DNA of 7,828 bases from Myxococcota bacterium. Lineage in GTDB: Bacteria; Myxococcota_C; UBA6777. The notes below the pieces were generated by a model. That model was not told the DNA's origin. It searched no databases and worked only from the letters and a program-made list of their open reading frames with translations. Shown here piece after piece: positions 2,588 to 7,828 of the stretch; positions within the stretch are counted from its first letter, which is position 1; every line of letters starts with the position of its first letter. A program made the translations under genes and the position numbers. The DNA lies in NCBI GenBank assembly GCA_023150835.1, contig JAKLKB010000193.1, forward strand, positions 1 to 7,828. Reading direction: 5' to 3'.

Positions 2588-3712
2588 ATGCAACATCCCC
2601 CTTTGTTCTCTTCTGAAACACCGATCGATTGGCTTTCTTTGAAAGAGCGCTTTCGTCAAAAGGCCAAGGCTCTAGGACTTGGACGGATCGGCTGGACGCA
2701 CGCCGAGCCTGCCGCAACACTCCAACACTACGAAGCGTGGTTGCGCAACGGATATCACGGCGAGATGGCGTACCTTGGTCGAGAAGATCGCTTGGCAAGG
2801 CGGCGTGATCTTCGCTTGATCTTACCCGAAGTTCAAAGCCTGATCTTTGTGACTCTGCCGTATTGGCCGTCTTCTTTTCCCGAAGCAACGGACGCGATGC
2901 GCGGTGTGGTCTCCTGCTATGCTTGGGGGCGCGATTATCACGATATCCTCGGACAGAAGCTTAAGACGCTTTGTGCTTGGCTTGAGCAAGAAGCTGGCGG
3001 AAAAACCCGATACTACATCGATACAGGTGCGATCCAAGAGCGCGACCTCGGCGGGCGCGCAGGGCTCGGATTTGTCGGCAAAAACACCATGTTGATCGAT
3101 CCCACCTACGGGAGCGGCTTTTTCTTAGGCGAGATCTTGACGACCTTGGCGTTTCCCCCTGATCCTCCGGCCCGTATGCCAAGCTGTGGTCGCTGCCAAC
3201 GCTGCTTGCAAGCCTGCCCAACACAGGCTTTTGTCGGGCCTTCTCAGATGGATGCACGTCGTTGCATCTCTTACTTGACCATCGAATTAAAGGGATCGAT
3301 CCCTGTGGATCTGCGCCCATTGGTGGGAAATTGGATCTACGGCTGCGATGTCTGTCAACAAGTTTGCCCTTGGATGCGCTTTGCAGGGGATGGCCCAAGC
3401 CCGCTTTGGGGCTCTCCGCCCGAAGAAGTGACGCTGCCCAAACTACTTGGACTGCTGGCGCTAGACGAGGAAGGCTTTCAACTGCGATTTGCGGAATCCC
3501 CGATTCGCCGCATCAAACGCTCTCGCTTGTTGCGCAACGTGGCTGTGGCCCTCGGAAACATCGGTGATCCAACGGCTCTCCCTGCGCTTCAACGTGTACT
3601 TTGTGATCCAGAGCCTCTGATCCAAGAGCACGCAGCATGGGCGATCCGCTCCATCCGCCAAAAGCTCCTCTTCACCCCAAACCCCTTCCCCACGAATCTT
3701 CGCCGCCGTTGA
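2588..3712 (+). CDS. queG: Epoxyqueuosine reductase QueG
   Basis: This cytoplasmic enzyme reduces epoxyqueuosine to queuosine in the anticodon of GUN tRNAs, using cobalamin and two [4Fe-4S] clusters. The N-terminal part carries the QueG cobalamin/substrate fold. D145 in YIDTGAIQERDLG matches the catalytic aspartate region, and GFVGKNTMLI (161-170) is characteristic. Eight cluster cysteines are present: C200, C203, C206, C210 (CxxCxxCxxxCP), C226 in CISYLTIE, and C253, C256, C260 in GCDVCQQVCPW. Residues about 315-362 form a HEAT-like helical repeat, as in other QueG proteins (usually about 310-390 residues). The gene starts 31 bases after the previous stop with no terminator between. I see no Shine-Dalgarno before the ATG, where the sequence is pyrimidine-rich. 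The last residues are Pro-rich and basic, and the coding end overlaps the promoter of the next gene. Confidence 0.95.
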   Translation: MQHPPLFSSETPIDWLSLKERFRQKAKALGLGRIGWTHAEPAATLQHYEAWLRNGYHGEMAYLGREDRLARRRDLRLILPEVQSLIFVTLPYWPSSFPEATDAMRGVVSCYAWGRDYHDILGQKLKTLCAWLEQEAGGKTRYYIDTGAIQERDLGGRAGLGFVGKNTMLIDPTYGSGFFLGEILTTLAFPPDPPARMPSCGRCQRCLQACPTQAFVGPSQMDARRCISYLTIELKGSIPVDLRPLVGNWIYGCDVCQQVCPWMRFAGDGPSPLWGSPPEEVTLPKLLGLLALDEEGFQLRFAESPIRRIKRSRLLRNVAVALGNIGDPTALPALQRVLCDPEPLIQEHAAWAIRSIRQKLLFTPNPFPTNLRRR

Positions 3713-3807: not shown

Positions 3808-5754
3808 TTGGAGCAATACGACGATGTTCCCGAGTTCTCGCTTGTAATCGAATCTGGCGGTGAACGAGGTGAACGCTTTACCTTTCAACAACCTGAGGTC
3901 ACTCTTGGTCGGACGGCTGACAACGATCTTGTCTTGTATGATGGGGCTGTCTCTCGCCGCCACATCGTAATTTATTATAGAAATCAACAGTTTATTATCG
4001 AAGACTTGGGCAGTAGCAACGGAACCATCCTCAACGGCCAACCGTTGACGCAACCCAATGTTCTTTCCGAAGGGGACCGCATCGATATCGGGCCTGTTCG
4101 CTTTGTCTTCACGCTGGAAGTCGAGCGCGGCGACTCCACACAGATGGAAGTCGAAGCCATCCCAGAACATTGGGTGAACCCCGATCCTTCCGCTCCGATC
4201 GCACGCCCTCGCTTTGACGCCAGTTCGGGCTTACCTGTCCCTCCACAAGGCGACACCCGCGCTTTTTCAGCACACCAACTCCACCAAGGCCAAGCCCCCC
4301 TCCCCCCTGTCTCGGCAACCCAGCACCTTCCTGCTCAACACCTCCATCCTTCCGCTGGATTCGCACTTCCACAACACGCACCCCCTCCTCTTCATCCCAA
4401 CGGCACTCCCGCACCTTCGCACGCTTCATCACAGCCCTATGGTGCGCCATCCCAGCCCTATGGTGCGCCATCACAGCCCTATGGTGCGCCATCCCAGCCC
4501 TATGGTGCGCCGTCACAGCCCTATGGTGCGCCGTCACAGCCCTATGGTGCGCCGTCACAGCCCTATGGTGCGCCATCACAGCCCTATGGTGCGCCATCCG
4601 CCCCTTACAACGGCGCTGCTTCGTTTCCTGCTGGGCCGTCCTATCCCTCCCAAGCCCCTGCACCGGTCTGGTCAGCGCAACCTGCCGTTGGAGATGCAGC
4701 CTTCTCTCCGAACGCGGCTTCGATGCCCCCGCCATCCGCAGCATTGGCTAGGTTTGCCCCTGCGATCCCTTCGCTGTCTCCGCCTCCACAATCGGCCTTC
4801 CCACCACTTTCTGGCGCACCTGCTCCTTCAAAAAACCTTGTTTCCCCCCAACCAAGCGGACTTTCCGCAGCTTCTGCTCGGCGCCCGTCTCTTGATCGGC
4901 CCGGGATCTCTCTGCAACAAGAACGCGCTTATGTTCTTCGACTCTCGATCCTTGGCTTGGTGTTGCTTCTCGCCACACTTGGGACGTTTTTGATCCCCGT
5001 TTCTCCCCCTCAAAACCTGTTGATCGCGCAGCCTGTCGCTGCACAAAAAAGCGAACCCGTCCCTGTACGTGCCGAAGATATCGAAAGCATCTATCAACGC
5101 AGCTTTGGTTACAACCAATACAACAAGCTTGATGCGCGTTATCTGTTTGAAACTACGTTTTCGATCAAGTACAGCGATGGCAAACTCTTTGTTTCATTTC
5201 GTTTGATCGGCCCTGACAGCGTCAGCCTGCTCGCCAACGGCACCGAATTCGAGCGGCTACACCCCAATCCCCAACAGTGGTTGCCTTTTCGCGCAGAGAT
5301 CCCGCGTGGACTCTTGCGCTACGGCGAAAACCTGATCACCTTCAAGCGCATCTCTGCCGCAGACAACCGTTGGGGACTGACACACGTCCGCTTTGAAGAA
5401 AAAGAGATCCCGCTTGCCAACCTCCGCCGTGCGAAGACTTATTGCAAACAGGGAGACGAGCTTTTTGATACATTCCAAACACAGCCCGAGCATACTCCCC
5501 GCGCCATCGAAGCCTACGAAAATTGCCGGCTCTATTTGTTCCGAAAGACTCCGATCCACCCTCTGTTTTCGCGTGCAACCAAGCAGATCAAACAGCTTGA
5601 ACAATTCCGAAATGATCTTTATGTTGCAGGACTCAAACAGGCCCAATCCAACCCTGCAACCAAAAAGCAGGTGTACGAGGGCTTGCTAAAATACTTTGAT
5701 GACAAATCCCCTCAATACTTGCGACTCTCTGAGATGTTGCAAACAAACCCTTGA
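3808..5754 (+). CDS. FHA-domain, proline-rich, single-pass membrane protein with extracytoplasmic domain
   Basis: This is a 648-residue protein of unknown specific function. Residues about 10-105 are a canonical FHA domain: GR at 34-35, SRRH at 49-52 and SSNGTILNG at 69-77, the residues used to bind phosphothreonine. A roughly 265-residue Pro/Ala/Ser/Gln-rich linker follows, including eight SQPYGAP repeats (208-263). One hydrophobic helix at about 379-398 puts FHA in the cytoplasm and the rest outside. Residues about 445-530 alternate like a beta-sandwich of the galactose-binding type (weak inference). Residues 535-648 are helical and TPR-like. The only two cysteines, C546 and C573, are in that outer part and could form a disulfide. 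An ATG at 3637 is in frame but lies inside queG and upstream of the promoter. The extension it adds is Cys/Pro-rich and outside the FHA fold, so TTG 3808 is preferred. The gene is followed by a second FHA membrane protein. Confidence 0.85.
   Translation: MEQYDDVPEFSLVIESGGERGERFTFQQPEVTLGRTADNDLVLYDGAVSRRHIVIYYRNQQFIIEDLGSSNGTILNGQPLTQPNVLSEGDRIDIGPVRFVFTLEVERGDSTQMEVEAIPEHWVNPDPSAPIARPRFDASSGLPVPPQGDTRAFSAHQLHQGQAPLPPVSATQHLPAQHLHPSAGFALPQHAPPPLHPNGTPAPSHASSQPYGAPSQPYGAPSQPYGAPSQPYGAPSQPYGAPSQPYGAPSQPYGAPSQPYGAPSAPYNGAASFPAGPSYPSQAPAPVWSAQPAVGDAAFSPNAASMPPPSAALARFAPAIPSLSPPPQSAFPPLSGAPAPSKNLVSPQPSGLSAASARRPSLDRPGISLQQERAYVLRLSILGLVLLLATLGTFLIPVSPPQNLLIAQPVAAQKSEPVPVRAEDIESIYQRSFGYNQYNKLDARYLFETTFSIKYSDGKLFVSFRLIGPDSVSLLANGTEFERLHPNPQQWLPFRAEIPRGLLRYGENLITFKRISAADNRWGLTHVRFEEKEIPLANLRRAKTYCKQGDELFDTFQTQPEHTPRAIEAYENCRLYLFRKTPIHPLFSRATKQIKQLEQFRNDLYVAGLKQAQSNPATKKQVYEGLLKYFDDKSPQYLRLSEMLQTNP
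4429..4617 (+). repeat. Eight tandem 21-base repeats encoding SQPYGAP, plus one degenerate unit
   Basis: Eight 21-base units run from 4429 to 4596, each encoding Ser-Gln-Pro-Tyr-Gly-Ala-Pro without a single amino-acid change. A ninth, decayed unit (4597-4617) encodes SAPYNGA. The only base differences are synonymous: TCA or TCC for Ser and CCA or CCG for the last Pro. Because 21 is a multiple of three, long artefactual open frames appear on both strands here. Confidence 0.97.
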
Positions 5755-5873
5755 AAGATGGGCAGCCTTTCGGTAGGACAAACCATCCGCACTTTTTTTC
5801 CCTGTGGCTTGCGCATGATCTTGGCTGTGTGCTTCGTTGTGCGAGGCCCTTCATCATTTAGGATTTTTGCGAC
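5755..5873 (+). other. Gap between the two FHA genes, with weak terminator-like signal
   Basis: GATGG (5758-5762) can pair with CCATC (5783-5787), enclosing a smaller CCT/AGG hairpin (5766-5768 with 5775-5777). A run of seven T follows at 5793-5799. The stem is short and interrupted and the T-run starts five bases after it, so any termination is probably partial. No good promoter was seen for the next gene, which suggests read-through from the first FHA gene. AGGA at 5860-5863 serves the ATG at 5874 with a 10-base spacing. Confidence 0.3.
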
Positions 5874-7583
5874 ATGAACAACGGTCCGAAAGACGGAAAC
5901 TGGAACGCACCCGGGTCCCCCTACGCTTCTTATGGACCACCTCGAGGGCAAGGGGCGGTGGGCTTTGAAGAGACCCGATTGCTCGAAGATCCAAGCCAAG
6001 AACTCCAACAAACTGCGCCAATCTCTCCTCACGCAGCCCAGCAAGCCCCCGCGCCATCGGCTTCACCCGCTGCGCGTGGCGGCATCAATCCCAAAGATAT
6101 CGCCAGTGAAAAAACCATCCTGCACGACGACATCAAAGGAAGCCTCGGAGCGATGGCCAAGTTGGTGATCTTGGAAGGAATGCAACAAGGAAAAGAATTC
6201 CCTATCCTTGAGCAAACCGTCTCGTTTGGTCGAGAAAGAGACAACACCATCTCTTTTCCTGATCTGTCCGTAAGCCGCTACCACTTCAAGATCCACCGCA
6301 AACCCAACGGACACGATCTGGAAGGATTAAGCGATGGAAACCCGACATTGCTCAACGGAAAGGCCACCCGAAAAGCCACGCTCAAACACGGCGACCGCAT
6401 CCAAGCAGGAAAGACGCTGCTTCAATACCTCATGCTCGGGCAGCCCAACGCCCCAGTCGAGGCCAAATCCAACATGGCGATCTTTCTGGTCCTTGGATTG
6501 GTTCTTCTTTCAGGAGGGATCGGGGCAGGGATCTTCTTGTTTTCTGGAAGGAAAACCGCCCAAGACGACAGCAAGAAACAGATGGTCTCGGAAGCTTTTG
6601 AGGAAGGACTCAACCTGTATCGGCAACGCAAATGGCGCGATGCAGAGATCGCTTTCGAACGTGCGTTGAGCCATGACAGCAAGCGCATGGATATCAAACA
6701 GTATATCCGCGACGCAAGATCCGAAAATGATGCTGATCTCAAACTGAAAAAGGTTCGGTTGTTGATCGCGGACAAAAATTACAAAGAAGCCAAAGAAGCC
6801 CTAACTGATATCGAAGAAAAACTGGCCCCCGGCTCTGTTTACGCAGAAGACCTTTTGCGCCTCCAATCGAACGTTCGAAAAGCCCTTGCACCCGCTGTTG
6901 TCGCTGTCGTTCCTCCAGTCCGCAACGGCGGAACCAAACCCCCCGCACGCACGCGATGGGTCAAGAAAAATGGCCGTTGGGTTCGCGCTTCTGCTCCCGC
7001 CCCAACACCTCCGCCCACAACGGTCACTCCTGCGGTTCCTGCTGCAAAAACCCCCGAACAGATCGCCTTAGAATCTTTCGCTGAAGGCGATCTCAACAAA
7101 GCCAAAGATCTTCTGATCAAAGCAGGAAACAGCAACAAAGCAAACCAGATCGACCAGTTCCGTGAAGCCTACTCGCGTGGGAAAAGCAGCCACAACAACC
7201 GCATCCACACCACAGCGATCCCCGCACTTGAACAAGCACTCCAAATCGATCAAGAACTCGGGCAAGGAAAGAGCCTCTACACCGTACAGTTGCGCAAAAT
7301 GCTCGCCAATATGTACTCGATGGCCGGTCTGATGGCTTTTAGCGAGCGACAATACGGCTCCGCTTACAGCAGCTTTCGCAAAGCACTCAAACAACGTCCC
7401 GACCATATCGTCAGCAAAAGCAAGATCGAAGAGATCCAAGCCGAAGCCCAAGGCTGGCTTTCCGAGGCTCAAAAAGCCAAAGGCACCGCCGCCAAAACTT
7501 ACCTCCTGCGGATCACGAATACCCTCCCCCAAACAGACCCCATCTGCAAACAAGCCAAAGCACTTCTCAAACAGTTCGAATAA
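5874..7583 (+). CDS. FHA-domain, single-pass membrane protein with TPR-like extracytoplasmic repeats
   Basis: This is a 569-residue protein with no assigned function. The disordered N-terminus (1-93) holds two similar Thr-acidic motifs, EETRLLED (32-39) and EKTILHDD (79-86). An FHA domain spans about 95-187 with GR at 119-120, SRYH at 134-137 and NPTLLNG at 156-162. The usual S-x-NGT element reads GNPT, so phosphopeptide binding may differ. A transmembrane helix is at about 201-223, which leaves the rest outside the membrane. Residues 238-345 contain TPR-like helices (the clearest repeat is 238-275). A Pro/Ala-rich linker at 346-395 includes RWVKKNGRWVR (361-371). Residues 396-569 are again helical and TPR-like. 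Its layout mirrors the preceding gene, but the two outer domains are not visibly alike. The pair suggests a membrane complex that reads Ser/Thr phosphorylation inside and binds partners outside. That role is inferred. Confidence 0.9.
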   Translation: MNNGPKDGNWNAPGSPYASYGPPRGQGAVGFEETRLLEDPSQELQQTAPISPHAAQQAPAPSASPAARGGINPKDIASEKTILHDDIKGSLGAMAKLVILEGMQQGKEFPILEQTVSFGRERDNTISFPDLSVSRYHFKIHRKPNGHDLEGLSDGNPTLLNGKATRKATLKHGDRIQAGKTLLQYLMLGQPNAPVEAKSNMAIFLVLGLVLLSGGIGAGIFLFSGRKTAQDDSKKQMVSEAFEEGLNLYRQRKWRDAEIAFERALSHDSKRMDIKQYIRDARSENDADLKLKKVRLLIADKNYKEAKEALTDIEEKLAPGSVYAEDLLRLQSNVRKALAPAVVAVVPPVRNGGTKPPARTRWVKKNGRWVRASAPAPTPPPTTVTPAVPAAKTPEQIALESFAEGDLNKAKDLLIKAGNSNKANQIDQFREAYSRGKSSHNNRIHTTAIPALEQALQIDQELGQGKSLYTVQLRKMLANMYSMAGLMAFSERQYGSAYSSFRKALKQRPDHIVSKSKIEEIQAEAQGWLSEAQKAKGTAAKTYLLRITNTLPQTDPICKQAKALLKQFE

Positions 7584-7654: not shown

Positions 7655-7670
7655 CTACTTCTTTACTCTC

Positions 7671-7828
7671 CTACTTCGATTCCAAAGAATCCGTTTCTAC
7701 CACAGAATTCGTGATGGCTGCTTCGGGAAGTGTCGATGTGTTCGTTGCTTCGGGAAGTGCCGATGTGTTCGTTGCTTCGGGAAGTGTCGATGTGTTCGTT
7801 GCTTCGGGAAGTGCCGATGTGTTCGTTG
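7671..7828 (-). CDS. 3' end of a minus-strand gene with nine-residue tandem repeats (5' partial)
   Basis: Reading the complement from the right edge, one frame stays open for 51 codons to a TAG at 7673-7671. The protein ends AAITNSVVETDSLESK after at least four units of TNTS[A/T]LPEA. It would be a Thr/Ser/Pro/Glu-rich, low-complexity tail of unknown function, convergent with the FHA gene and separated from it by a hairpin. Certainty is limited: the 27-base repeat leaves all six frames open, including a plus-strand frame reading ASGS[V/A]DVFV from an ATG at 7714. I prefer the minus strand for its acidic, disordered-looking tail and for the terminator-like hairpin just past its stop. Confidence 0.45.
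   Translation of the reverse strand, partial: TNTSALPEATNTSTLPEATNTSALPEATNTSTLPEAAITNSVVETDSLESK
7720..7828. repeat. 27-base tandem repeat, four units, continuing past the window edge
   Basis: Units are at 7720-7746, 7747-7773, 7774-7800 and 7801-7827, and the final G at 7828 starts or continues a fifth. They are identical except at one base that alternates T, C, T, C (AGTGTCG or AGTGCCG), so the array is also a 54-base repeat present twice. Each unit contains the small palindrome CTTCGGGAAG. Confidence 0.97.

Follow-up and report, generated by a model that had tools for sequence, protein, structure and literature searches.

The window spans an entire contig, 7828 bases long, from a draft genome of 7.56 Mb (G000) that belongs to an uncultured, myxobacterium-like lineage. 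It encodes two adjacent FHA membrane proteins, here called A and B. Each of them very probably recognizes phosphorylated threonine in the cytoplasm and displays protein-binding domains beyond the inner membrane. The pair is most likely a lineage-specific variant of an already known design, for which we infer the function and the kinase. The explanation that we favor, with about an even chance of being right, is that A and B act as inner-membrane adaptors, encoded by an operon-like gene pair, and form a phospho-regulated envelope scaffold. To our knowledge, few envelope outputs have been described for lineages whose Ser/Thr kinases number more than 100. The conserved FHA pair, for which a candidate phosphorylation site and well-modelled outer domains are available, offers a small, testable case of kinase action across the inner membrane.

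Domain architecture of A and B

The contig carries cysK (329–1291), a metB-type enzyme gene (1408–2556), queG (2588–3712; TIGR00276, 6e-107), and the genes of A and B; its last stretch, beginning near 7670, holds the minus-strand tail of a beta-lactamase-family gene. Protein A (3808–5754, plus strand, 648 aa) was assigned as an open reading frame with a TTG start, supported by Pfam FHA, a structure model, and orthologues in three other genomes; a longer frame starts with ATG at 3637 but would overlap queG. Protein B (5874–7583, plus strand, 569 aa) has an ATG start and was assigned with Pfam and a structure model. A 27-bp tandem repeat at 7719–7828 (4.1 copies, minus strand) codes for nine-residue TNTSALPEA repeats. 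These form the coding tail of the beta-lactamase-family gene, which continues on contig C86, and the assembly probably broke at the contig end because of this repeat.

Protein A consists, in order, of an FHA domain, a Pro-rich repeat linker, one transmembrane (TM) helix, a galactose-binding-like beta-sandwich, and a TPR-like helical part. The FHA domain (3898–4092, plus strand; residues 31–95; Pfam FHA, 4.7e-21) is canonical, with GR (R35 or neighboring; LGR from residue 33), SRRH from residue 49, and SSNG from residue 69, and the orthologue alignment has a canonical FHA domain in all copies. The Pfam YscD model, which is of the FHA fold, overlaps this match, and Pfam detected no other family and no enzyme domain in A. 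The cytoplasmic linker after the FHA domain contains a 21-bp tandem repeat (4427–4598, plus strand, 8.2 copies) that encodes QPYGAPS units. G001 has fewer copies than G000, and nearly all units are QPYGAPS in G000 and QPYGSPS in G001, as if this minisatellite were homogenised. The single TM helix (4924–5001, plus strand; about residues 373–398) is followed by the outer region (5050–5751, plus strand; residues 415–648).

Protein B consists of a low-complexity N-terminus, an FHA domain, one TM helix, and two TPR blocks; its low-complexity stretch precedes the FHA domain, whereas the repeats of A come after it. The FHA domain of B (6219–6410, plus strand; residues 116–179; Pfam FHA, 2.5e-11) keeps GR120, S134, R135, and H137 (SRYH), and N156, with the Gly after the key Asn changed to Pro in this genus (GNP for GNG). 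Each of the two proteins has a significant match to the FHA family in which the phosphothreonine-site residues (Arg, Ser, His, and Asn) are present, and phosphothreonine binding is predicted for both. The Pfam scan of B detected TPR_2 (6.6e-9) and no enzyme domain. The single TM helix (6471–6545, plus strand; about residues 200–224) is flanked by small net charges that do not decide the topology, and the outer region (6552–7580, plus strand) comprises TPR block 1 (about residues 230–340), a flexible linker, and TPR block 2 (about residues 393–567). The initial annotation had read each protein as an FHA domain, low-complexity sequence, one membrane helix, and a long C-terminal region with no enzyme domain, and the Pfam, TM, and repeat analyses agree with it.

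The outer regions had been described as a beta-sandwich plus helices in A and as TPR repeats in B, and the AlphaFold models bear this out. In A, a jelly-roll-like beta-sandwich is followed by five helices (pLDDT 82); in B, two helical-repeat (TPR) blocks are predicted (pLDDT 86). Foldseek matched the sandwich of A to carbohydrate-binding module (CBM) chains with E values of 3e-4 to 1e-3 (TM-score by target for CBM36, 0.43–0.47), and structural comparison of the modelled fold with CBM6/35/36 and BcsB domains gave Z values of up to 8.9 across about 94–107 residues, at 7–17% identity. This likeness suggests a fold class and indicates no ligand. The helices of A matched Cyp40, FKBP51, and FKBP52 over 63 residues with Z under 8, which is only suggestive of a TPR-like identity for the modelled part. 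The profile search suggested by the initial annotation returned nothing for the outer region of A against solved structures (best E 0.11), and Pfam at a relaxed threshold gave nothing above chance-level matches for three outer domains of A.

The large C-terminal regions of both proteins very probably lie outside the inner membrane. A has only two cysteines (C546 and C573), both invariant and both located in the outer helices, as would suit an extracytoplasmic disulfide. TPR block 2 of B also occurs in three proteins (L048 7297–9231, L050 6994–8805, L053 9096–10208) that have signal-peptide-like N-termini and no FHA domain; these make up a repeat family that is specific to the lineage and probably periplasmic. 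Their N-termini support a periplasmic location of the outer region of B.

Conservation and neighborhood of the gene pair

The lineage was compared over five genomes (G000–G004); searches at the family, order, class, and phylum levels gave the same five, which makes it a very small lineage within the set searched. Four of them have one copy each of the outer domain of A, and when 84,980 species were scanned with a sequence pattern, this domain appeared only in the three relatives. The initial annotation had suggested testing whether the two genes are conserved as neighbors, and they are linked in all three other genomes with the pair (G001, G003, and G004), which represent three genera. In G003, the gene of A is split over two contigs, with the FHA half adjoining queG on C690 and the outer half on C689; the break falls within the Pro-rich linker, and A and B are spaced by only 3 nt. 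Because the FHA scores are far above the cut-off and the adjacency recurs in these genomes, the pair is not a chance arrangement. G002 has neither A nor B; queG and a close, orthologous metB are also missing from it, so that the absence of the pair there is uninformative, a gap and a loss being indistinguishable.

The gene order metB, queG, A, B is kept in all four genomes with the pair. Downstream of B, a beta-lactamase-family gene and tgt are present in G000 (across contigs, via C86), G001, and G004, and the beta-lactamase-family gene has opposite orientations in different genera. The tgt gene of G003 is found away from the pair, on a separate contig and beside other genes. The neighbors of the pair are housekeeping genes (cysK, metB, and queG; the beta-lactamase-family gene and tgt). 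A nearby kinase, pilus, or secretion cluster was not supported, as no kinase, phosphatase, pilus, secretion, or apparatus gene was conserved beside the pair in the neighborhoods compared within the lineage. In genus g1, tgt adjoins the gene of a kinase-like protein that combines a Pro-rich linker with a C-terminal TM helix (L103 2600–4504 and L044 1–1601). Its Pkinase match (9.9e-6) is under the cut-off and its catalytic motifs seem lost by eye, features of what is probably a membrane pseudokinase; G004 has none at the corresponding place.

Candidate phosphorylation sites and alternative explanations

Directly before the FHA domain, the B-type proteins have an [E/D]xT motif followed by two hydrophobic residues, in the forms EKTIL, EATMV, DKTLL, EQTVL, and EETMV. 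In B itself, the motif E79-K-T81-I-L (6108–6122, plus strand) is the candidate phosphothreonine site, recognized from the alignment of orthologues and of the B-type paralogues within the lineage (C167, C22, G002:C54, and G004:C61). Eight B-type proteins contain nine occurrences of the motif, where shuffled sequences predict 0.39; this count is partly circular because the motif was defined on these proteins. In other FHA proteins, nine were observed against 3.9 expected, a weak excess that 12 of 1000 shuffles reach. As a general motif of FHA proteins it is weak without the B-type, several matches seeming to lie inside folded domains, and A does not have it. The linker of A has a conserved Thr motif (GDTRAFS, GGTQTFS, or GDTRTFS in the orthologue alignment). 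GarA and OdhI are known phospho-switches, each of which binds its own N-terminal Thr motif once this is phosphorylated. The best solved-structure matches for the FHA domains of both A and B are of the GarA/OdhI type, and the motif of B is a candidate for a similar switch.

Each genome of the lineage has at least 142 to 149 matches to Ser/Thr kinase domains, with similar numbers across relatives, and these many Hanks-type kinases are possible writers of phosphothreonine for A and B. In G000, a genome of 7.6 Mb, about 40 FHA domains were counted alongside no fewer than 147 such kinase matches. In the favored scaffold explanation, one or more Hanks-type kinases would phosphorylate threonines, including that of the [E/D]xT motif before the FHA domain of B, and the conserved Thr in the linker of A may also be phosphorylated. 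The phosphopeptide would dock on the FHA domain of B, in cis or on a neighboring molecule, or on that of A. Docking would cluster or release A and B, controlling what the periplasmic domains hold together, and the pair would relay the state of phosphorylation in the cytoplasm to a scaffold in the periplasm. The coupling of cytoplasmic phosphorylation to envelope assembly, put forward in the initial annotation, would come about in this way.

The strongest competitor, although an unlikely one, is that A and B belong, as stray accessory subunits, to a phosphothreonine-regulated apparatus encoded elsewhere, such as a Kil/Tad-like pilus, a Glt-like gliding machinery, or a Bd0474-type predation complex. 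Bd0474 has the order FHA, FHA, TM, extracytoplasmic TPR and shares an operon with the FHA protein Bd0473 (PMC12034629), the Kil clusters of M. xanthus contain many FHA proteins (PMC8460266), and GltG, likewise bitopic, carries an FHA domain (PMC3169522). Contig C150 of G000 also has a 913-aa frame (L106 8366–11107) that joins an FHA domain to a T2SSE-type ATPase, as in KilF of Myxococcus. However, this gene lies away from the pair, on a contig where the neighboring genes differ and do not resemble a full Tad locus, both A and B are below the NCBIfam cut-offs for GltG, TagH, and SctD, and the pair itself is surrounded by housekeeping genes.

Somewhat less probable still is a static envelope scaffold with no signalling, in which the FHA domains would be phosphorylation-independent protein-protein modules as in SctD/YscD. 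FHA-fold domains of the T3SS need no phosphothreonine and provide a precedent; the FHA regions of both A and B match the Pfam YscD cytoplasmic model above the cut-off, and the Gly-to-Pro change after the key Asn of B points in the same direction. Against this, both proteins retain the phosphothreonine-site residues (Arg, Ser, His, and Asn), the FHA domain of A is canonical in every copy, and the SctD family scores of the two proteins are far under the cut-off (TIGR02500; 14.8 and 14.1, with a cut-off of 86).

A bolder version of the signalling model, which we regard as unlikely, is an enzyme-less, two-protein phospho-relay across the membrane. The FHA heads of A and B would read each other's phosphothreonines, thereby clamping or releasing the periplasmic, sugar-binding-like domain of A against the TPR arrays of B; if true, cytoplasmic kinases would set envelope architecture directly across the membrane. 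If the pair instead served a pathway encoded next to it, either queuosine (queG and tgt) or sulfur amino acids (cysK and metB), phosphorylation would link translation or metabolism with the envelope. Such a role would fit the company of metB and queG in all four genomes and of tgt in three, but is very improbable, as these are independent housekeeping genes, tgt is elsewhere in G003, nothing in A or B points to either metabolism, and the shared ancestry of a small lineage suffices for the synteny.

Comparison with known FHA systems

By described architecture, the closest counterpart of B is Bd0474 of Bdellovibrio, which is essential for predation and binds Bd0075 through its outer domains (PMC12034629). 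Like B, it has a cytoplasmic FHA part, a TM helix, and an extracytoplasmic TPR region with no enzyme domain described, and its operon holds a second FHA gene, Bd0473, as the pair does (PMC12034629). B shows this design with an FHA domain, one TM helix, and a C-terminal TPR region predicted to be outside. It is not a full match, since Bd0474 has two FHA domains and B has one according to Pfam, and the operon neighbors differ.

GltG (PglI) of the M. xanthus gliding machinery is likewise a bitopic FHA protein with a large periplasmic part (PMC3169522). It differs from A and B in having a C-terminal TonB domain, there are no glt genes near the pair, and the scores for NF033760 are 34.1 (A) and 14.7 (B), with a cut-off of 650. 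The T6SS TagH/Fha family (TIGR03354) was rejected for A, with a score of 62.3 and a cut-off of 120.25. GarA and OdhI share with B an acidic-x-Thr motif N-terminal to the FHA domain, but are soluble and have neither a TM helix nor an outer domain, unlike A and B; the NF041660 scores are 65.8 (A) and 38.7 (B), with a cut-off of 200. The Kil/Tad-associated proteins of M. xanthus provide a case of several FHA proteins per machine, for which phospho-signalling has been proposed (PMC8460266). No Tad ATPase, secretin, or platform genes are beside the pair in G000, G001, and G004, and the T2SSE ATPases are on other contigs. FhaA–MviN of mycobacteria, in which the FHA protein reads its phosphorylated partner and controls envelope synthesis (PMC11898655), is a precedent for FHA-based envelope control, although FhaA is a different protein and no link to MviN was seen here.

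The initial annotation had called the pair a possibly undescribed module. The cut-offs for GltG, TagH, SctD, and OdhI were not reached, but the pair is less novel than that: predatory and gliding relatives already provide examples of an FHA domain, a TM helix, and a periplasmic protein-binding region in one protein, namely Bd0474, GltG, and FHA proteins encoded in Kil clusters. What is particular to this pair is the Pfam-less, sandwich-plus-helix outer domain of A, which is strictly paired with B in the lineage.
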